Positions 2,422 to 38,531 of a DNA stretch of 64,000 nt are shown piece after piece; the stretch's first letter is position 1, and the number at the start of each line of letters is the position of its first letter. This DNA is from Thermoanaerobacterales bacterium. Its GTDB lineage: Bacteria; Bacillota; Desulfotomaculia; Desulfotomaculales; JASEER01. Below the pieces are notes generated by a model. The model was given only the letters and a program-made list of their open reading frames with translations. It was not told the DNA's origin and did no database searches. The position numbers were made by a program, and so were the translations under genes. The DNA lies in NCBI GenBank assembly GCA_030019475.1, contig JASEER010000003.1:1-64000 (forward strand), in the 5' to 3' direction.

Positions 2422-3774
2422 TTACGCCACTTCAGGGACGTTTTCAACGGCAAATCGATGCTTTACGCGGTCGTTCATCTCATTCCGAACTATATCGGAG
2501 CGCCGGAGACCGCACTCCTCCACCATCCACTCCACCGGCACGCCGTAACCTCGCGTCGGATTATTGATGAAGACGTGGGTTACGGCGCCAACGAGGCGGC
2601 CGTCCTGAATAATCGGGCTGCCGCTCATCCCCTGGATGATGCCGCCCGTCCGTTCCAGGAGCTTCGGGTCGGTGACCCGGATAACAAGCCCCTTACCGTC
2701 TTTCCGGGCCCCCGGCCGGACACGCTCGATTTCGATCTCGAACCTTTCGACCCGGTTCTCGTCCAGGACGGTCAGGATCTCCGCCTTTCCCGGCCTGATC
2801 TGTTCGGCCAGCGCCACCGGAATCGGGCGCCGATAAAAGCTCACCGACGGCAGGCTGCGCAGCATTCCGAAAATGCCGCATGTCGTGTTTTTCTGGATCG
2901 TGCCGGCAATGTCTCCTTCACCAGCAAAAACGCCGAGTTTCTCTCCGGGTTGGCCGCGCCGCCCCGGACGGACCCCCTCGATAACCGCGGCCACAATCTT
3001 CCCGTCCGCCAGTTCAATGGCCTGTGACGTCTGGGCATCGGCGATAACGTGGCCCAGCGCGCCGTAAGACCTCGTGTGCGGCTCATAGAAGGTTAGGGTG
3101 CCCACTCCCGCCGCGCTGTCCCGGACGAGCAAGCCTATCCGCCAGTGCGCGGTCTCCCCGCAATAGATCGGCGTAACCCGGGCTTGGAACGTCCGTTTTT
3201 GGCGACGCAACTCCAGCTTCAAGGAGCGGCCTCCTCGTCCCGCCTTGTTTACCAGTTCGCGTACATCAGATTCACTGATTACCTGACGACCGTTGATTTT
3301 CAGGAGTAGATCTCCCGGAGCGATCCCCGCTTCCCGCGCCGGGGAATGCTCCCGCCCTTTTGCATCACGTATCGGAGCCTGCCCCACCACAAGCACGCCC
3401 TGGGAGTGCAGAAGCACGCCAATGGCCTGGCCGCCGGGAACGACCTCCACCTCGGGCACGGCGGTCACCGTCAGGTAGCGGAGCGGGATGACCCCGAAAA
3501 GGCGAAGGCTGACCTGCAGTTCGCCGGGGTTGCGGACCAGCGGCCCGGTCCCGGACGGCGACGGTTCCAGCAGTTCCGGGTGATCGGTATGAAAGTCCAG
3601 GTTACGAAGAAGCGGCGGTGGCACATTAAGAAAGGATGATAATGATTCGCCGACAAGGACCTGACGGTGCGCCGGAGCGCCGAAAAAACTACGGCCTGCG
3701 GGCGTGCAACAGGCCGCGGCAACAAGAAAAGCAAAAAAAATAAAGCCGAGACGCTTCAAAAAAGACCGGGACAC
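2422..3774 (-). CDS. spoIVB: Stage IV sporulation serine protease SpoIVB
   Basis: SpoIVB (peptidase family S55) is secreted by the forespore into the intermembrane space and triggers pro-sigma-K processing in the mother cell. The product has 450 residues from a GTG at 3774 with AAAGGGGG upstream. It shows an N-terminal membrane anchor (residues about 8-24), a PDZ domain around residues 110-200 ([20 protein letters not shown]), the catalytic histidine in [10 protein letters not shown] and the catalytic serine in GMSGSP at about 382-387. Length and order match the family (about 425-450 residues). It is directly upstream of spo0A. Forespore (sigma-F/G) control is expected, but I could not identify that promoter with confidence. 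Confidence 0.96.
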
Positions 3775-6997: not shown

Positions 6998-9160
6998 CTA
7001 ATTCATCCCGGCCAGCGGGGCGTACTTGACCAGCAGTTCCTTGACCCCCAGGCCCGGGAAGGCCACCGTCACCCGGGCCTCTTCGCCCTCGCCGGTCACC
7101 CGGACCACGGTCCCTTCACCCCACTTCTGGTGCCGGACCTTGTCCCCGATGCGGAAGGTCCGGCACGTCTCCCGCACCCCGCCCGCGGAGGAAGCGGCGG
7201 TCGGGCGCGGCAGATCTAAGGGTTCTCCGCGGTCGCCGCCCTCGACCCGCAGAAGGTCGGGCGGGATTTCATCGAGAAAGCGGGAAGGGGTGTTATAGCG
7301 TTCAACGCCGTAAAGCCGCCGGCGTTCGCAGCAGCTCAGAAACAGACGTTCCCGCGCCCGGGTCACCCCCACATAGCAGAGGCGCCGCTCCTCCTCCAGT
7401 TCGGCCGGTTCATCCAGGGCGCGGGAGTGCGGGAACACGCCCTCCTCCATTCCGGTGAGGAAGACCACCGGAAACTCCAGCCCTTTGGCGCTGTGCAGGG
7501 TCATCAGGGTCACCCGGTCGGCGCCCTCGTCGAGCTGGTCCAGGTCGGTGACCAGGGCCAGGTCCCCGAGGAATTCTGCCAGCGTGCCTCCCCGCGAAGC
7601 GTCGAACTCCGCGGTGACCGAAAGGAACTCGGCCAGGTTTTCGAGGCGCGTCTCGGCCTCCACCGACCGCTCCGCGGTCAATTCCGCCCGGTAACCGGTG
7701 CTCTCCAGGACCTCCCGCGCCAGCGCCGTGATCGCCCCGCCCTCGTCCCGGCGGGCACGCCAGGCGGCCAGCTTTTCTCCGAGTTCGGCCATGGCCCGCC
7801 GCACTCTGGAGGAAAGACCCTCGATTTCCTCCGCCCGCTCCAGAGCCAGCCCGGCCGGTATCATCCGCTCACGCACGAAGGCGAAGAACTTGAGCAGAGA
7901 AGCCTGCCCGACCCCCCGGCGGGGGACGTTAATGACGCGCGCCAGGCTCACCTCGTCGGCCGGGTTGACAATAAGCCGCAGGTAGGCCAGCAGGTCCTTG
8001 ATTTCCTTGCGCTCGTAAAACCGCAACCCCCCGACGATGGTGTAGGGGATACCGGAGCGCAGGAATACTTCTTCCAGGACGCGTGACTGGGCATGGGTGC
8101 GGTAAAGGACGGCGAAATCGTTGTAAGAGCGGTTCTCCGAGAAGTGCAGCCAGCGGATCCGTTCGGCCGTGGTGCGTGCTTCCTCGGCCTCGTCGGCGAG
8201 CCGAGCCAGACCGATCGGCTCCCCTTCGCCGGCGGCCGTCCAGAGGCGCTTGTCCTTACGTTCGCTGTTGTGGGCTATGATTTGGTTGGCGGCAGCCAGG
8301 ATACGGCCGGTGGAACGGTAGTTTTGTTCCAGCAGGATCACGGTCGCGTCGGGATAATCCCGTTCAAAATCCAGGATGTTGCGGATATCGGCCCCGCGCC
8401 ACTTGTAGATCGACTGGTCCGGGTCCCCGACCACGCTCAGGTTCCTGTGCTGCCGGGCAAGCATCCTCACCAGGGTGTACTGGGCATGGTTGGTGTCCTG
8501 GTACTCGTCGACCAGCAGGTGACGGAAGCGGTGCTGGTACCGCTCCAACACGGCGGGGGTCTCCTCGAAGAGGCGCACTGTGAGGCCCAGCAGGTCATCG
8601 AAGTCGAGGGCGTTGTTCGCCTCGAGGCGCTCCTGGTACCGGAAGTAGACCCGCGCGGTCAGCTCTTCGAAGTAATCGCCGGCCGCGGCGGAAAGCTGCG
8701 ACGGACCGACGAGCCGGTTCTTGTGCCAGGAGATGGCGTGCCGGAAGGCGCCCGGCGGGTAACGCTTGGGGTCAAGGTCCATCTCCCGCAGGCAGTCCTT
8801 GATGACCGTCAGGCTGTCATCCTGGTCGTAGATGACGAATTCAGCACTGTAACCCAGATGGCCGATCTCCCGCCGCAGGATGCGGAGACAGGCGGCGTGG
8901 AAGGTGAACACCCAGATCTCGGCGGCACGCTCCGGCAGAAGGCGGTCAATCCGCTCGCGCATCTCCCGCGCGGCCTTATTGGTAAAAGTTATGGCCAGGA
9001 TGCCGTAGGGGGGCACCCCTTGTTCACCGATCAGGTAGGCCACGCGGTGGGTCAGAACGCGGGTCTTGCCGCTGCCCGCCCCGGCCAGGACCAGCAGCGG
9101 CCCCCCGGGGTGCGTCACGGCCGCCGCCTGGGCCGGGTTCAGTCCTTCGAGCAGGCTCAA
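6998..9160 (-). CDS. pcrA: ATP-dependent 3'-5' DNA helicase PcrA/UvrD
   Basis: PcrA is the essential superfamily 1A helicase of Gram-positive bacteria, acting in repair, rolling-circle replication and removal of RecA or RNA polymerase. The 720-residue length is normal. Motifs in order: Q-motif region GLNPAQAAAVTHPGGP, Walker A AGAGSGKTR, motif Ia ITFTNKAAREMRERI, Walker B DEYQDTNHAQ, motif III GDPDQSIYKWRGAD, motif IV ILLEQNYRST, motif V TLMTLHSAKGLEFP and motif VI LCYVGVTRARERL. A C-terminal Tudor-like domain (VRHQKWGEGTVV) is typical of PcrA rather than Rep. First gene of the pcrA-amj-ligA group; hisIE ends 35 bp upstream. Confidence 0.97.
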   Translation of the reverse strand: MSLLEGLNPAQAAAVTHPGGPLLVLAGAGSGKTRVLTHRVAYLIGEQGVPPYGILAITFTNKAAREMRERIDRLLPERAAEIWVFTFHAACLRILRREIGHLGYSAEFVIYDQDDSLTVIKDCLREMDLDPKRYPPGAFRHAISWHKNRLVGPSQLSAAAGDYFEELTARVYFRYQERLEANNALDFDDLLGLTVRLFEETPAVLERYQHRFRHLLVDEYQDTNHAQYTLVRMLARQHRNLSVVGDPDQSIYKWRGADIRNILDFERDYPDATVILLEQNYRSTGRILAAANQIIAHNSERKDKRLWTAAGEGEPIGLARLADEAEEARTTAERIRWLHFSENRSYNDFAVLYRTHAQSRVLEEVFLRSGIPYTIVGGLRFYERKEIKDLLAYLRLIVNPADEVSLARVINVPRRGVGQASLLKFFAFVRERMIPAGLALERAEEIEGLSSRVRRAMAELGEKLAAWRARRDEGGAITALAREVLESTGYRAELTAERSVEAETRLENLAEFLSVTAEFDASRGGTLAEFLGDLALVTDLDQLDEGADRVTLMTLHSAKGLEFPVVFLTGMEEGVFPHSRALDEPAELEEERRLCYVGVTRARERLFLSCCERRRLYGVERYNTPSRFLDEIPPDLLRVEGGDRGEPLDLPRPTAASSAGGVRETCRTFRIGDKVRHQKWGEGTVVRVTGEGEEARVTVAFPGLGVKELLVKYAPLAGMN

Positions 9161-32790: not shown

Positions 32791-33801
32791 TTGTTAGTTT
32801 ACTTTCAGGCCCTGGCCGATCATCGCCGGCGCATTATGCACCTGCCCGGCGTCCTCGGGGTCGGCATCGGCTACAAGGTAACCGGGGGGAACCGGACGGA
32901 CCGCCTCGCCCTGGCCGTCTTCGTCGCCCAAAAGCGCCCTCTCAGCGAGTTGCGGCCCGCCGAGCGTATCCCGCCGGCCGTCGGAGGCGTGCCCACCGAC
33001 GTCGTGGCCGTGGGAGAGTTCACCGCCTTCTCCCGGCGCACGGCGCGCTGGCGCCCGGCGATGCCCGGGGTGAGTATCGGCCACTACCGTTCCACCGCGG
33101 GGACCTTCGGCGCCGTCGTTTACGACGCCGCCACCCGTGAGCCTCTCATCCTTTCCAACAACCACATCCTGGCCAACGCCACCGACGGAAAGGACGGACG
33201 GGCACAGGCCGGCGACTCCGTCCTGCAGCCCGGGCCGTATGACGGGGGGCGCGATGGCCCGGACACCATCGGCCGGCTCGCGCGGTTCGTCCCCATATCC
33301 TTCCGTACCGCCGCGCCCACCTGCCCCATTGCCCGCCGCTTCGAGCGCGGCCTGAACAACCTGCTCGCCGCCTTTCGCCCCCAGTACAGCGTCCGCCTCG
33401 TCCGGCGCAGCGGCGGTCTGAACCTGGTCGACGCCGCCGTCGCCGCCCCGGTGAAACCGTCCGCGGTCCGGCCCGAGATCCTCGAACTCGGCCCGGTACG
33501 CGGGACAAAAGAAAAGGTCGAGCTGGGGGACACGGTGAAAATCAGCGGGCGCACCAGCGGGGTCTCGACGGGCACCGTAACCTACATCAACGCCACCGTC
33601 ACCGTCGCCTACACCGGAAACCGGACCGCCGTCTTCGAGGACCAGGTCCTGGCCGGCGACTTGAGTGATCAAGGCGACAGCGGATCGCTTGTCGTCGACA
33701 CGTCCAACCGTGCCGTCGGCCTGCTCTTCGCCGGCTCGGCAACGGCCACCGTCTTCAACCCCATCGCCCACGTCACCCGTTTGCTCGGGGTGGACTTTTA
33801 G
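32791..33801 (+). CDS. Chymotrypsin-fold serine protease homologue (trypsin-like/Nal1-like)
   Basis: The product has about 336 residues without a signal peptide. A catalytic triad is visible: His near residue 125 (LSNNHILAN), Asp near 214 (NLVDAAVA) and Ser near 297 (QGDSGSLVV). AGGAAGGTGA is a near-perfect Shine-Dalgarno five bases before the TTG at 32791; a GTG at 32782 lies inside it, so I favour the TTG. The N-terminal block GVLGVGIGYKVTGG is common in this bacterial family. It is probably a cytoplasmic protease; the substrate is unknown. It is transcribed away from hpt, and its stop codon overlaps the end of the convergent regulator gene by 4 bp. Confidence 0.8.
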   Translation: MLVYFQALADHRRRIMHLPGVLGVGIGYKVTGGNRTDRLALAVFVAQKRPLSELRPAERIPPAVGGVPTDVVAVGEFTAFSRRTARWRPAMPGVSIGHYRSTAGTFGAVVYDAATREPLILSNNHILANATDGKDGRAQAGDSVLQPGPYDGGRDGPDTIGRLARFVPISFRTAAPTCPIARRFERGLNNLLAAFRPQYSVRLVRRSGGLNLVDAAVAAPVKPSAVRPEILELGPVRGTKEKVELGDTVKISGRTSGVSTGTVTYINATVTVAYTGNRTAVFEDQVLAGDLSDQGDSGSLVVDTSNRAVGLLFAGSATATVFNPIAHVTRLLGVDF

Positions 33802-34580
33802 GGGGTGAAGCGGTAGCCCACCCCGCGCACGGTTTTAATAAACACCGGGCGGGCCGGGTCGGGCTCGATCTTCCGGCGCAGGTGGTGGATATGCGCCGCA
33901 ACCGTCTGGTCTCCGTAAGAATAGCCCCAAACGGCCTGCAGCAGTTCCCGCCGGGAAAAGACCCTGCCCGGATGGGAAGCGAGAAACCAGAGGAGGCGCG
34001 ACTCCATAGGCGAGAGCTTGACCGGCCTGCCGTACACCTTTACCAGCCCGCTTGCACGGTCCAATATCAGCCCGGCGCGGTTGAGGGTGTCGCCGGGCCC
34101 GTGAGCGCCTGGAAGACCGTCCGTCCCTTTGTCCGTCGCCGGGGGGACGCCGGCCGGGCGGAAGCAGAAAACGGACAAAGGCAGGCCGGCGATGGCCTGG
34201 ATGACTTTCTCCCTTACCGGCCAGCTCAGGCCGTACGGCCCCCGTTCCCCCGGCGGGTATTCCACCTCAACCAGGGCGGCGCCCGTTCGCCCCTCGGCCA
34301 GGGCCCCGCGGGCGATCGCCTCCGCGTTGCGCCTTACCAGATACGGCTCACCGGCATACCAGACACGGTATTCCTCGAGCACAAGGAAAAACAGCCGGCG
34401 GTTGACGATCTCCCCGAACTCTCCCGCCAGCGCGCGGCTTAACGGCTCCGGTATGCAACAGATAACCTTCCGGTCGGCCAGGCACACATGCTTGATCAGC
34501 CCGGCCAGTTGACGGTGAAGATGGACCGGATCCCCGTAGACAAGGACCATGTAGGTGTTCGGGAGTTTAAAGAAGACCAT
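33798..34580 (-). CDS. Orphan winged-helix regulator with MEDS-like N-terminal domain (copy 1)
   Basis: The product has 260 residues. The C-terminal about 95 residues form an OmpR/PhoB-type winged helix (KLSPMESRLLWFLASHPGRV, then TVAAHIHHLRRKIEPDP and TVRGVGYRF). There is no receiver domain. The N-terminal about 125 residues (LVYGDPVHLHRQLAGLIKHV) resemble the MEDS/DcmR sensory fold, a tentative call. About 110 bp upstream is the paralogous regulator at 34689-35438. Targets are unknown; the adjacent protease gene or the riboswitch operon are candidates by position only. Confidence 0.75.
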   Translation of the reverse strand: MVFFKLPNTYMVLVYGDPVHLHRQLAGLIKHVCLADRKVICCIPEPLSRALAGEFGEIVNRRLFFLVLEEYRVWYAGEPYLVRRNAEAIARGALAEGRTGAALVEVEYPPGERGPYGLSWPVREKVIQAIAGLPLSVFCFRPAGVPPATDKGTDGLPGAHGPGDTLNRAGLILDRASGLVKVYGRPVKLSPMESRLLWFLASHPGRVFSRRELLQAVWGYSYGDQTVAAHIHHLRRKIEPDPARPVFIKTVRGVGYRFTP

Positions 34581-34688: not shown

Positions 34689-35438
34689 CTACGGCAGGGC
34701 AAACCGGTAGCCGACCCCGCGCACCGTTTTGACCAGGGCGGGATGGGCAGGGTCGGGCTCGATCTTCTTCCGCAGGTTATAGATGTGTGCAGCTAGAGTC
34801 CTCCGCCCGGCGCCACCCCGGGTCCCAATCTGCAATTCCCCGTAGCGTACCACACGCCCGGGAATCCGGGCCAACAGCAGGAGCAGGTCAAATTCCGCCG
34901 GGGAAAGGTCGACCGGACGCCCCAGCACCTCGACCTCCCAGGAGTCCCGGTCCATATATAGGACCGGCCGCAAATCGAGGCGCTTCTGGACCGCTAAAGA
35001 GAGTGACAGTTTCGAAGCGCCCAGGACCCCCAAGAAAGAAAAGAAGCTGAGCCGTCCACCGAGCGCCAGGCCACCGGTCTCGATAGTCGCAAGCCGGTCC
35101 TGCATCCCGGTGTAGTCGGCGTCTATGATTACCGTCAGTCCCTGCCACCCTTCCCGCAAGGCATCCGAGACCGCCTGCTCCAGCGCCCGCCGCGTTGCCC
35201 CGGATTCACAACCCCACCAGCGGCGAAAATCCTCGGGGGCCATTAGAACGGGTCGCCCGCCGCACAGGCGAAGGCACTGGTCAAACACCAGGCCCGCCAC
35301 CGAGTGGGGAACGCTGCAGATTATCCTGTGGTTGCCGACTACCGAATGGGCCACAACCGCGCGGACCTGGCGCCGAAGGTCACCGTAATCGTTAAAGTAG
35401 CTGTAGGCCCAAACACCTGCGGCCCCGGTCAGATCCAT
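34689..35438 (-). CDS. Orphan winged-helix regulator with MEDS-like N-terminal domain (copy 2)
   Basis: The product has 249 residues and the same layout as the next gene: an N-terminal domain (AYSYFNDYGDLRRQVRAVVA; RIICSVPHSVAG) and a C-terminal winged helix (LSPAEFDLLLLLARIPGRVV; LAAHIYNLRRK-type recognition helix; KTVRGVGYRFALP). The two C-terminal ends are nearly identical (KIEPDPA and KTVRGVGYRF), so they are paralogues. No phospho-acceptor domain is present. It is divergent from the c-di-GMP riboswitch operon across a 400-bp intergenic region. Confidence 0.75.
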   Translation of the reverse strand: MDLTGAAGVWAYSYFNDYGDLRRQVRAVVAHSVVGNHRIICSVPHSVAGLVFDQCLRLCGGRPVLMAPEDFRRWWGCESGATRRALEQAVSDALREGWQGLTVIIDADYTGMQDRLATIETGGLALGGRLSFFSFLGVLGASKLSLSLAVQKRLDLRPVLYMDRDSWEVEVLGRPVDLSPAEFDLLLLLARIPGRVVRYGELQIGTRGGAGRRTLAAHIYNLRKKIEPDPAHPALVKTVRGVGYRFALP

Positions 35439-35569: not shown

Positions 35570-35576
35570 TTCGACA
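35570..35576 (-). promoter_or_regulatory. Perfect 0A box near the predicted transcription start
   Basis: TTCGACA on the plus strand is the exact reverse complement of the Spo0A box TGTCGAA. It lies 12 bp after the -10 box of the candidate promoter at 35531-35558, where Spo0A~P would block or modulate initiation. A 7-mer match can occur by chance several times in 64 kb. Confidence 0.4.
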
Positions 35577-35654
35577 TAATTCCCGTTGTTATAACCTGAG
35601 CACTATGGTTAGATTGGCACAGATTTTCCATTTGTCCCCTATCCTTTTCGCAGT

Positions 35655-35751
35655 TCCGATCAAGGGCAAAGCCACTTAAAGGTGGCGGCGCAAAGCTAAA
35701 GGGGCTAAGGCGGAATACCGCTATGCCAGCCAGTTGCCGGGTTGCGTGCCG
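35655..35751 (+). promoter_or_regulatory. Cyclic-di-GMP-I (GEMM) riboswitch aptamer
   Basis: The sequence carries the GEMM-I core: AAGGGCAAAGCC, a stem GCCAC/GTGGC, the conserved CGGCGCAAAGC, GGGGCTAAGGCGG with a GCGG-AATA-CCGC stem, and TATGCCAGCCAGTTGCCGG. The final CGTGCCG (35745-35751) can pair with CGGCACG (35789-35795), which overlaps the right arm of the following terminator, so an antiterminator/terminator switch is possible. It lies about 90 nt before the HD-domain gene, with no other gene in between. Recognition is from memory of the motif; no covariance model was run. Confidence 0.85.
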
Positions 35752-35775
35752 TCCATGTGCATCTTTTGAGCACCG

Positions 35776-35804
35776 GACCCGTCCTGACCGGCACGGGTCT
35801 TTTT
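35776..35804 (+). terminator. Intrinsic terminator, expression platform of the c-di-GMP riboswitch
   Basis: GACCCGT and ACGGGTC form a 7-bp stem followed by TTTTT, 25 nt after the aptamer and 35 nt before the start of the HD-domain gene. The upstream segment CGTGCCG competes for the right arm. If ligand binding sequesters that segment the switch would be OFF with c-di-GMP; the direction is not certain from sequence. Confidence 0.8.
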
Positions 35805-35838
35805 ATCTTAAATTCTGCGCCGTTAAGAGGAGGTCCCC

Positions 35839-36519
35839 ATGCTCTCGTCCGCCATGCAGCCCAACCTTGCACTGGCCCGCCTGTTTTTCCCCGACCGTAC
35901 CCTGGAAGAACGCCTGCGGTCCATCCCGGAATACACGGACGAATACCAGCCCCATACCGGTGAAATCGTCATTACCGGCGTCATCGCCGACGGCTGTTAC
36001 CAGCACGTCGTCAACTGCCTGCACCTTCTGGCCGATCTCGATCAGCAGGGCATCCCGGCGCTGGTCGGGGTTAAGCGGAAATCCCTTGTCGAAACATTGG
36101 TCTTTCACGATATGGGGAAGATCCAACCGCGGCTGGCGGTCGAAGACCGTGTGCGCCCCGCCGACGTCTTCGAGGACGGCCGGCGGCATGCCGCCCGCAG
36201 CGCAGCCTTCGCCGCTCGTGACTACCGCATCAGCGATACCGTCGCCACTCTGATCCGTTACCACCACCATGAGGAAGAGGAGCTTCCCGCCACCTTCCCG
36301 GCTCAACTCAAACCCGCTTACCGCCTCGTCCGGCTGGTGGACGGGCTTTCAGCCGCCATTACCCGGCGCGGCGCCTGTGTTCGCCTGGAGGTGCGGGGGT
36401 ATGAAATCATCGTCTGCGAGAAGAACGGGCACCCGGGTTACGACGGCTGCCGCGTGGTCGATCTTCTGTCGGGCATCGTCCGGGCCGCCGAGGGTAAACG
36501 CGGAAAGGAAGGGAGGTGA
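35839..36519 (+). CDS. HD-domain phosphohydrolase-like protein under c-di-GMP riboswitch control
   Basis: The product has 226 residues from the ATG at 35839 with AGAGGAGG upstream. HD-domain metal ligands are visible: His in YQHVVNCLHLL, the HD pair in LVFHDMGKIQPRL and further histidines in RRHAARSAAFAARDY and YHHHEEEELP. It lacks the HD-GYP signature, so it is not clearly a c-di-GMP phosphodiesterase; substrate unknown. Its stop overlaps the cheW start (GTGA). Riboswitch control and co-transcription with cheW and a chemoreceptor suggest a signalling role. Confidence 0.8.
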   Translation: MLSSAMQPNLALARLFFPDRTLEERLRSIPEYTDEYQPHTGEIVITGVIADGCYQHVVNCLHLLADLDQQGIPALVGVKRKSLVETLVFHDMGKIQPRLAVEDRVRPADVFEDGRRHAARSAAFAARDYRISDTVATLIRYHHHEEEELPATFPAQLKPAYRLVRLVDGLSAAITRRGACVRLEVRGYEIIVCEKNGHPGYDGCRVVDLLSGIVRAAEGKRGKEGR

Positions 36520-36935
36520 TTCAACTGTCCGAGGCGCAACTGGTTATCTTTGAAGTGGGCGATAACTGCTACGCGCTGGACATCGCCGATGTCCATGAGA
36601 TCCTGAGGGTTACCGAAATAACGCCTCTCCCCCAAATGCCCCCGTACATGGAGGGGGTCATCAACCTTCGGGGCAAGGTGCTGCCCGTCCTGAATCTGCG
36701 CCGCCGCCTTGGTTTGGACAGGATCCCCGTGGACCAGCATACCCGGATCATCCTGGTCAAGTCCATGGACAAGCTCTTCGGCCTGATCGTCGACCGTGTC
36801 CTGGAAGTCAACACCTACACCGAACAGGAAATGGAGGGGCCGGAGGCGGCGGGGCTGAACGGCAACATACTGCGGGGCATCGTCAAGAAGCCCGGGGCGA
36901 TATGGCTCGTCATCGACCTCGAGCATGTGGCGTAA
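36516..36935 (+). CDS. cheW: Chemotaxis coupling protein CheW
   Basis: CheW links chemoreceptors to the kinase CheA. The product has 139 residues, a single CheW domain: VIFEVGDNCYALDIADVHEI, PPYMEGVINLRGKVLPVLNL and ILVKSMDKLFGLIVDRVLEV. The GTG at 36516 lies in GGGAGGTGATT and overlaps the preceding stop. It is followed by a chemoreceptor gene after 36 bp. cheA is not in the window; its partners must be elsewhere. Confidence 0.94.
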   Translation: MIQLSEAQLVIFEVGDNCYALDIADVHEILRVTEITPLPQMPPYMEGVINLRGKVLPVLNLRRRLGLDRIPVDQHTRIILVKSMDKLFGLIVDRVLEVNTYTEQEMEGPEAAGLNGNILRGIVKKPGAIWLVIDLEHVA

Positions 36936-36971: not shown

Positions 36972-38531
36972 ATGAAGCTATCCGTAGGCATGAAAATCGG
37001 TGGGGGATTCTTTGTTGTACTGCTGCTCCTGTGCGTCGTGGCCGTCCAGTCCGCCCTGGTCATGAACCAAACGATTTCAGATTCCGGAGAGGTGGAGCAG
37101 AGGGTGGTGCGGCTGAGCCTCGACTACCAGATTGCCGATGCTTTCAAGGAAGCATCAAGAGATTTACGTGCTTACCTGCTATGGGGTGACCAGAAATACG
37201 CTGAAGAGTTTGAAGAGGACATCAAGAACACCCAGACGTTACTGGAAAAGCGCCTTAACAACTGTTCCACCCAGGCCAGGCCCAAGCTGGAGGAAGTGCT
37301 CAGCAAGGTTACCGAATACGACCGTCATATTGACAGTGAGGTGTTGCCCCTTGCCGTGGAAGGGAAATATGCGGAAGCCAGTGCCGCCGCTCAAAGCGTA
37401 AACGCGTACGGCACCGAAGTGAATCAGCTCTTGACCGAACTGGTGGCGGAGAATGAGACGAAGACCGGGAAGGTGGTAGACAATATGCGGAACGCCGCCG
37501 CGATGAGCCGCTCCACCATCATCCTGGTCAGTAGCGTCGCCCTGCTGATCGGCCTGTTCCTGGCGCTTTTCATCACCCGGATGATCACCCGGCCGATCCT
37601 GGCCACCGTCCGCGAGGCGGGCCGTATCGCCGACGGCGACCTCACGGGCGAGGAACTGGTGGTGCGCACCCGGGACGAGATCGCCCGCCTGGCCGAGGCC
37701 TTTAACCATATGCGTGCCAACCTGCGGGAGATCGTCGGTAACATGACCCGGACCTCCCGGCAGGTGGCCGAGTCGGCCTCCCAGCTCGCCTCCCAGGCCG
37801 AGCAGACCGCCGCCGGAGCGAACGAAACAGCCTCCACCATGAGCGAGATGGCCTCCACTGTGGAGCAGGTGACCCAAAACGCCCAGACGGTGTCGGAGGC
37901 GTCCGAACAGGCTGCGGGCAAGGCCGCGGAAGGCGCAAAGGGCGTCGAACAGGTCATCGGGCAGATGAAGACCATTGAAAAGGCCACGAACGAAACGGCC
38001 GAGGTCATCAACACCCTGCACCAAACGTCCGGCCAGATCACCCAGATCGTGGACCTGATCACCCACATCGCCGACCAGACCAACCTCCTGGCCTTAAACG
38101 CCGCGATCGAGGCCGCCCGCGCCGGGGAGCAGGGCCGGGGCTTCGCCGTCGTCGCCGAGGAGGTGCGTAAGCTGGCCGAGCAGTCGGCCAACGCCGCCAA
38201 GGAGATCTACGGGCTGATCACCACCGTCCAGAGCGAATCCAAGAAGGCCGTGGAGGTTATGGCCGCCGGAGCGGCGGAGGTCACCGCCGGGAGCAAGGTG
38301 ATCAACGAGGTCGGGGCCAATATCAAGGCCATCACCGCCGCCATCGAAGACCTTGCCCGCCAGGTCCAGGAGGTGGCCGCCGCCGCCGAGGAGATGTCGG
38401 CCGGCGTCCAGAACGTCGCCGGGACGACCGAGGAGCAGACGGCGGCGATGGAGGAGGTCTCGGCCGCCACCGAAGAGCTGACCGCCCTGGCGGGCGAGCT
38501 GGATAAGCTCGCGGCCCGGTTCCGGGTTTAG
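36972..38531 (+). CDS. Methyl-accepting chemotaxis protein
   Basis: The product has 519 residues: membrane segment 1 (about 10-30), an extracytoplasmic four-helix-bundle type sensor (about 31-185), membrane segment 2 (about 182-204), HAMP (about 205-260) and a long signalling coiled coil with the highly conserved hairpin tip around [20 protein letters not shown] and [20 protein letters not shown]. No C-terminal CheR-docking pentapeptide is evident. The ligand is unknown. It is the third gene of the riboswitch operon, which makes receptor level depend on c-di-GMP. Confidence 0.94.

Follow-up and report, generated by a model that had tools for sequence, protein, structure and literature searches.

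A class I c-di-GMP riboswitch precedes genes for an HD-domain protein, CheW and a chemoreceptor within the window, the whole 64,000-nucleotide stretch of DNA that we analyzed. We propose that this riboswitch is an OFF switch controlling the three genes, that the HD protein hydrolyzes c-di-GMP or a close relative, and that the two form a double-negative loop, a reading that we consider evenly poised between right and wrong. It builds on the aptamer, its terminator, the competing complementarities, the gene order, the ligand residues of the HD protein and the recurrent c-di-GMP context of its family, all of which are apparent from the sequences. The riboswitch and the intrinsic terminator would control the three genes as one operon. 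When c-di-GMP is bound, the P1 helix would close, the antiterminator would be disfavored, and the terminator would form and turn the operon off; when c-di-GMP is low, the P1 3′ strand and the stretch that follows it would be available for the antiterminator, and transcription would continue into the operon. The HD protein would act on c-di-GMP or on a relative (pGpG or another cyclic dinucleotide), and c-di-GMP would repress the receptors along with its own degradation. Interest lies with the HD family rather than with the riboswitch, which is an ordinary one.

The aptamer (35655-35741, + strand) matches RF01051 at 75.4 bits (E = 5.6e-13, gathering score 35) across the full model, positions 1-87, and is the sole Rfam match in the window at the gathering threshold, which bears out the c-di-GMP-I riboswitch named in the preliminary description. 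The terminator that had been placed behind it is also present, at 35776-35804 (+), where GACCCGU (35776-35782) pairs with ACGGGUC (35793-35799) ahead of UUUUU (35800-35804); folded alone, this hairpin has a free energy of -13.4 kcal/mol. The P1 5′ strand (35649-35658, +) pairs UCCG 35655-35658 with 35738-35741 and, in our folds, extends outward by pairing CGCA 35649-35652 with UGCG 35743-35746. Within the P1 3′ strand and its extension (35735-35746, +), UGCCGG 35735-35740 is complementary to CCGGCA 35788-35793 in the terminator region. A second candidate is CGTGCCG (35745-35751, +), the antiterminator arm of the preliminary description, whose complementarity to CGGCACG (35789-35795) is exact and located as that description had it.

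In stepwise folding from position 35647, P1 is present and extended by CGCA/UGCG up to 35783; between 35786 and 35798 the fold is without P1 and contains neither the CGUGCCG pairing nor the P1-strand antiterminator; and at 35801-35804 the minimum free energy (MFE) fold holds P1 and the terminator together. The pairing of the P1 strand with CCGGCA is absent from all window MFE folds examined, and enforcing it costs 5.5 kcal/mol compared to the terminator fold (-53.2 versus -58.7 kcal/mol). With -52.2 kcal/mol for the enforced CGUGCCG pairing, the two antiterminators are equally stable in the window, so the CGUGCCG version may form in this copy. The terminator's probability in the window leader is 0.986 when P1 is enforced, 0.917 when the P1 5′ strand is blocked and 0.745 when the leader folds freely. 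An equilibrium switch was dropped for this leader, as the terminator survives the blocking of P1; equilibrium folding favors the terminator and any switch would therefore be co-transcriptional. We also abandoned the P1-strand antiterminator as a general rule, since it does not appear in the window MFE folds and is no more stable than its competitor.

From this folding analysis, c-di-GMP is predicted to turn the operon OFF, because P1 can form alongside the terminator, an arrangement also published for the Cd1 OFF-switch. In the portion of PMC9262584 that we consulted, the Cd1 terminator is compatible with the aptamer and its antiterminator uses the aptamer-closing strand; class I c-di-GMP switches of Clostridioides difficile are described as uniformly OFF in the excerpted text of PMC6366702. 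The CGUGCCG arm allows a different possibility, which we judge clearly unlikely: the riboswitch would be an ON switch, or would respond too weakly to matter, through an arm mostly outside of P1. The arm begins 4 nt 3′ of the Rfam aptamer and could pair while the P1 core remains intact, its enforced stability equals that of the P1-strand version, and six of its seven pairs appear in the MFE fold of a 175-nt transcript beginning at 35655. However, P1 is unformed in that same 175-nt fold, which again points to OFF. The extended P1 also takes UGCG 35743-35746 and shares two bases with CGUGCCG, the MFE fold at 35801-35804 combines P1 and terminator, and two paralogous leaders of the same genome, C22 and C26, are without the arm and use the P1 strand instead. 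The antiterminator proposed earlier thus exists as a pairing, but it is particular to the window copy.

The organism's own genome (G000, 2.28 Mb in 87 contigs) contains four RF01051 matches. The C22 leader precedes an HD gene whose product is 87% identical to the window's, followed by a Cache-domain protein that is cut by the contig end. The C26 leader (loci L002 and L025) runs straight into the start of a cheW gene, which is broken off near the contig end in a sequence that we take to be an IS21-type end from its appearance. The fourth copy (L026, about 8015-8105, which is G000:C3:80015-80105, - strand) is flanked by flgC and a gene judged by eye to be fliE-like, within a flagellar operon, and has a terminator of its own. 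Within the MFE folds, the terminator region pairs with all six bases of the P1 3′ UGCCGG in C22 and with five of six in C26. The terminator's probability is 1.0 (C26) or 0.40 (C22) with P1 enforced and 0.011 or 0.0, respectively, once the P1 5′ strand is blocked.

We then scored the complementarity between the P1 3′ strand and the terminator against 500 shuffles in each of 13 leaders. Shuffles as good or better numbered 60 for the window, 12 for C22, 34 for C26 and 90 for the flagellar copy; 77, 34 and 37 for leaders from genomes G022, G007 and G051; and 44 for L098, 15 for L099b, 51 for L096, 5 for L108 and 59 for L020. The complementarity is therefore matched by at most 20% of shuffles in 12 of the 13 leaders, with a Fisher p of 7e-4 across nine leaders, one per lineage. 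The exception is L099a, which has no such complementarity (272 of 500 shuffles as good).

Behind the riboswitch, Pfam recovers the gene row that the preliminary description had read. The HD protein (35839-36519, +; 226 aa) matches PF01966 at 25.7 bits (cut-off 22; E = 1.5e-5), its sole Pfam match at E ≤ 0.1. Next come cheW (36516-36935, +; PF01584, 1.6e-37) and the chemoreceptor (36972-38531, +; 4HB_MCP_1, HAMP and MCPsignal domains). The GTG start of cheW at 36516 overlaps the HD stop by 4 nt and sits inside a Shine-Dalgarno-like AGGGAGGTGATT. The cheW start may instead be CTG 36525, because the C26 copy has TTG at that position and its own GTG is followed by a TAG in frame; judged from this arrangement, translational coupling of the HD gene and cheW is plausible with either start. 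On the other side of the leader, transcribed away from the operon, lie genes for two similar proteins with an OmpR-type DNA-binding C-terminus (33798-34580 and 34689-35438, both -), for which Pfam recognizes no N-terminal domain.

The cassette also occurs in a decayed form. Three genomes from a single genus (G007, G022 and G051; loci L023, L022 and L024) have kept the riboswitch, while an internal deletion has collapsed HD and cheW into one short frame of 70-116 aa, joining 39 residues of the HD N-terminus to the CheW C-terminus. A receptor gene lies directly beyond this frame in G007 and G051, and the contig ends there in G022. In these decayed leaders the terminator's probability is at least 0.996 in every state, and each genome's leader carries a run of G (8 to 15).

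The operon may additionally be under sporulation control, as suggested by a short sequence motif upstream of the aptamer. TGTCGAA at 35571-35577 (-; TTCGACA on the plus strand) resembles the Spo0A box consensus. Of 14 leaders examined, four (window, C22, C26 and G009) have the motif no more than 100 nt ahead of the aptamer and one (L096) has it at -150; the remaining 9 are without it over 250 nt. As controls, 1 of 26 other riboswitch leaders has it (26 of the 29 loci L028-L056, leaving aside L028, L050 and L052), and across 115 kb of the own genome its frequency is 0.011 per 100 nt. The window also encodes spo0A (1527-2453, -; Spo0A_C, 158 bits), and because this gene adjoins one for a SpoIVB-like serine peptidase (2422-3774, -; by eye), the organism is probably a spore former.

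The preliminary description had suggested that the HD protein, which it noted to be without a GYP motif, might define a new signaling protein. The motif is indeed missing from the window protein, as it is from all 26 aligned members of its family, but the protein is no one-off: its domain is the output part of a large Bacillota family that is often fused to CBS or PAS sensors. A first relatedness search of genome contigs returned one relative only, and the family was then traced by profile search (E ≤ 1e-10), which found the domain in 6 of 113 genomes of the organism's own class and in 48 of 398 genomes sampled across the phylum; 43 of the 54 matches listed in the phylum-wide search fall below 1e-85. 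Among ten members scanned, all have the HD domain and seven also have CBS and/or PAS domains (those of L073 below the cut-off); L058, L020 and the C22 paralogue have HD alone. The window protein and its 87%-identical paralogue are thus family members without sensor domains. In a tree of the 26 domains, every row with riboswitch or GGDEF context falls into a single 14-row set (99/96), apart from the window pair, whose long branch is of uncertain position; the other groups make up a 10-row set (95/95). A literature search, with thin coverage of subscription journals, found no account of an HD family without GYP that is connected with c-di-GMP riboswitches, CheW, CBS/PAS domains or feedback, and the family apparently goes unnamed.

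Conservation across the family is consistent with a metal-dependent enzyme of the HD type. All 26 aligned members share H56, H90, D91, K94, H117, H142-H144, E146, P150, D168, S171, R176 and R177, and the metal set H..HD..H..HH..D is complete in each; HD phosphodiesterases use the same ligand order, according to the consulted part of PMC8177086. Aligned by hhalign with five HD-GYP proteins from these loci (probability 95.8, E = 6.7e-9), the family profile superposes HD on HD, H117 on the third His, H142-H143 on HH and D168 on the last Asp, while H56, lying outside the aligned stretch, is matched to its HD-GYP ligand by order only. Controls with single sequences weakly reproduce the profile's ranking of HD-GYP over PgpH (one HD-GYP sequence, probability 29, E = 5.9e-4; the PgpH HD domain of the own genome, probability 2.8, E = 0.016). 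Yet the protein is not classed as HD-GYP, because two defining features, the GYP motif and the HD_5 match, are missing: it has no HD_5 (PF13487) match up to E = 0.1 and is not among the 11 HD_5 matches of its own genome. By these residues and contexts, the HD protein is most likely a binuclear phosphohydrolase of c-di-GMP signaling.

To describe these contexts, we collected 49 full-length family genes with their flanks: the window, C22, L005, L018, L019, L020, L058, 20 genes in L096-L114 (two of them from L099) and 22 in L129-L150. The set leaves aside the truncated L021 and L151, fragments in G428, G404, G222 and G266, second short matches in G270 and G462, and L095, which repeats L005. Neighbors were called by a crude longest-ORF script with motif patterns, and Pfam confirmed all ten GGDEF neighbors and part of the rest; absent neighbors mean little at several loci because these end at contig ends. 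A class I c-di-GMP riboswitch (RF01051 or RF03167) leads the gene or its row in 7 of 49 cases (window, C22, L020, L096, L098, L099a and L108), or in 5 of 47 without the own genome's two copies. At rates that we assumed, 5-15 riboswitches per 2,500 genes, chance predicts 0.1-0.3 cases in a set of 49, and the probability of 5 in 47 is 1e-5 or less. The seven do not include L099b, which follows a riboswitch-receptor pair. Its locus in genome G365, L099, has two convergent family HD genes, of which one is led by a riboswitch and the other lies behind that pair on the opposite strand. Two further flank scans returned no class I element and a single class II element, a c-di-GMP-II-GAG riboswitch in L148 (6348-6431, +), located about 0.7 kb downstream of a GGDEF-HD gene pair. 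A GGDEF gene is adjacent or one gene away in 10 of 49 (L058, L100, L101, L103, L105, L113, L129, L131, L138 and L148), and 32 of the 49 have neither a class I leader nor a GGDEF neighbor.

CheW and/or receptor genes adjoin L005, L096, L097, L099, L100, L101, L103, L113, L129 and L131 (Pfam-confirmed for the first four), and STAS/HATPase (RsbT-like) genes accompany several members, some in rows with GGDEF (called by motif, partly by Pfam). The CheW and receptor neighbors, together with the fused CBS/PAS domains typical of signaling proteins, would also suit an HD protein that is a catalytically silent receptor or scaffold, whose nucleotide binding couples c-di-GMP to the CheW-receptor array. 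We regard this as quite improbable, as metal ligands and an HDxxK lysine that are invariant in 26 of 26 members would be unusual for a dead enzyme.

Which substrate the enzyme would act on is a separate question, and the fold does not choose, because many HD enzymes are near-tied in Z. The AlphaFold2 model (two-sequence input; pLDDT 86.2, pTM 0.85) aligned by VIA-align 2 with a CCA-type tRNA enzyme (Z = 10.2), SAMHD1 (9.7), exopolyphosphatase (9.7), YhaM (9.5), PhnZ (9.2) and PgpH (8.4). Foldseek on the PDB returned nothing at E ≤ 0.001, its best match being YhaM at E = 0.026; a second look at Foldseek's own list, with 50 VIA-align 2 rows listed, showed no HD-GYP among them, which excludes nothing. 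In PDB sequence searches, the single HD protein had 15 matches, all with E of at least 0.21 and none named as an HD protein; the 26-row profile had just two, and these were other HD proteins (E = 0.087 and 0.14).

These near-ties favor a reading that we find somewhat improbable, though a real contender, in which the protein is another kind of HD phosphohydrolase (with RNA ends, dNTPs or alarmones as possible substrates) and merely shares the motility regulation of its neighbors. The family is missing both GYP and an equivalent of PmGH D308, a position that reads as Ser in all 26 members by the hhalign alignment. In the available part of PMC4159591, alanine changes in the GYP of PmGH left activity not greatly reduced and loss of D308 impaired it; an HDOD protein without GYP failed to cleave c-di-GMP, per the excerpt of PMC4114195. 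One clade adjoins pilus or SHMT genes, two groups of neighbors (by eye) without a riboswitch or GGDEF link. The own genome has 12 GGDEF and 11 HD_5 matches; c-di-GMP turnover is therefore expected in it, and because those 11 are already there it needs no further phosphodiesterase, which counts against a phosphodiesterase here. Against a substrate outside of c-di-GMP signaling, riboswitch and GGDEF neighbors occur far above chance at the rates we assumed, and the HHxx ligand pair is that of phosphodiesterases in the consulted text of PMC8177086.

If the HD protein hydrolyzes c-di-GMP or a relative, the double-negative loop would sharpen the decision between motile and sessile states. A broader version of this proposal is tentative, and the balance is distinctly against it: the HHHxExxLP family would be an unrecognized, GYP-less class of cyclic-dinucleotide phosphodiesterases in Bacillota; in this genome the OFF riboswitch would have taken the place of the protein sensors, and the resulting double-negative loop would render the motile state bistable. 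If true, the family would be the hydrolase counterpart to the diguanylate cyclases linked to stressosomes and chemoreceptors. With a conserved putative hydrolase family that recurs after such riboswitches or next to GGDEF genes, Gram-positive c-di-GMP signaling would gain an enzyme class it has lacked, and a single circuit would connect riboswitches with chemosensory arrays and stressosome-like modules.

Compared to known systems, the window family resembles HD-GYP phosphodiesterases such as PmGH in its H..HD..H..HH..D ligands and HDxxK (as described in parts of PMC4159591 and PMC8177086). Unlike them, it has HHHxExx(L/V)Pxx(F/Y)P in place of the GYP loop (HHExxDGxGYP), a Gly (26/26) rather than a Glu four residues before the first His, and the Ser at the D308 position, and the window protein has no HD_5 match. 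It shares an HD fold with PgpH, the c-di-AMP enzyme that a section of PMC8177086 describes as a dinuclear HD phosphodiesterase; in contrast to PgpH, the window protein consists of HD only, without the membrane part or 7TM region, and the own genome's PgpH is a separate gene. The riboswitch belongs to the same aptamer family, RF01051, as Cd1 of C. difficile, which precedes the flgB operon, and in our predicted folds the C22 and C26 antiterminators use the aptamer-closing strand while the terminator is compatible with the aptamer, as in the Cd1 account excerpted from PMC9262584. It differs from Cd1 in preceding HD-cheW-receptor genes rather than a flagellar operon, and in that its P1-strand antiterminator merely equals the CGUGCCG arm, neither being the MFE fold of the full leader. 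Finally, the Moorella thermoacetica stressosome controls a diguanylate cyclase, as cited in the consulted part of PMC4976288; several family genes stand in STAS-HATPase-GGDEF rows that recall this module, but stressosome genes are absent from the window operon, and the CBS/PAS part from its HD protein.
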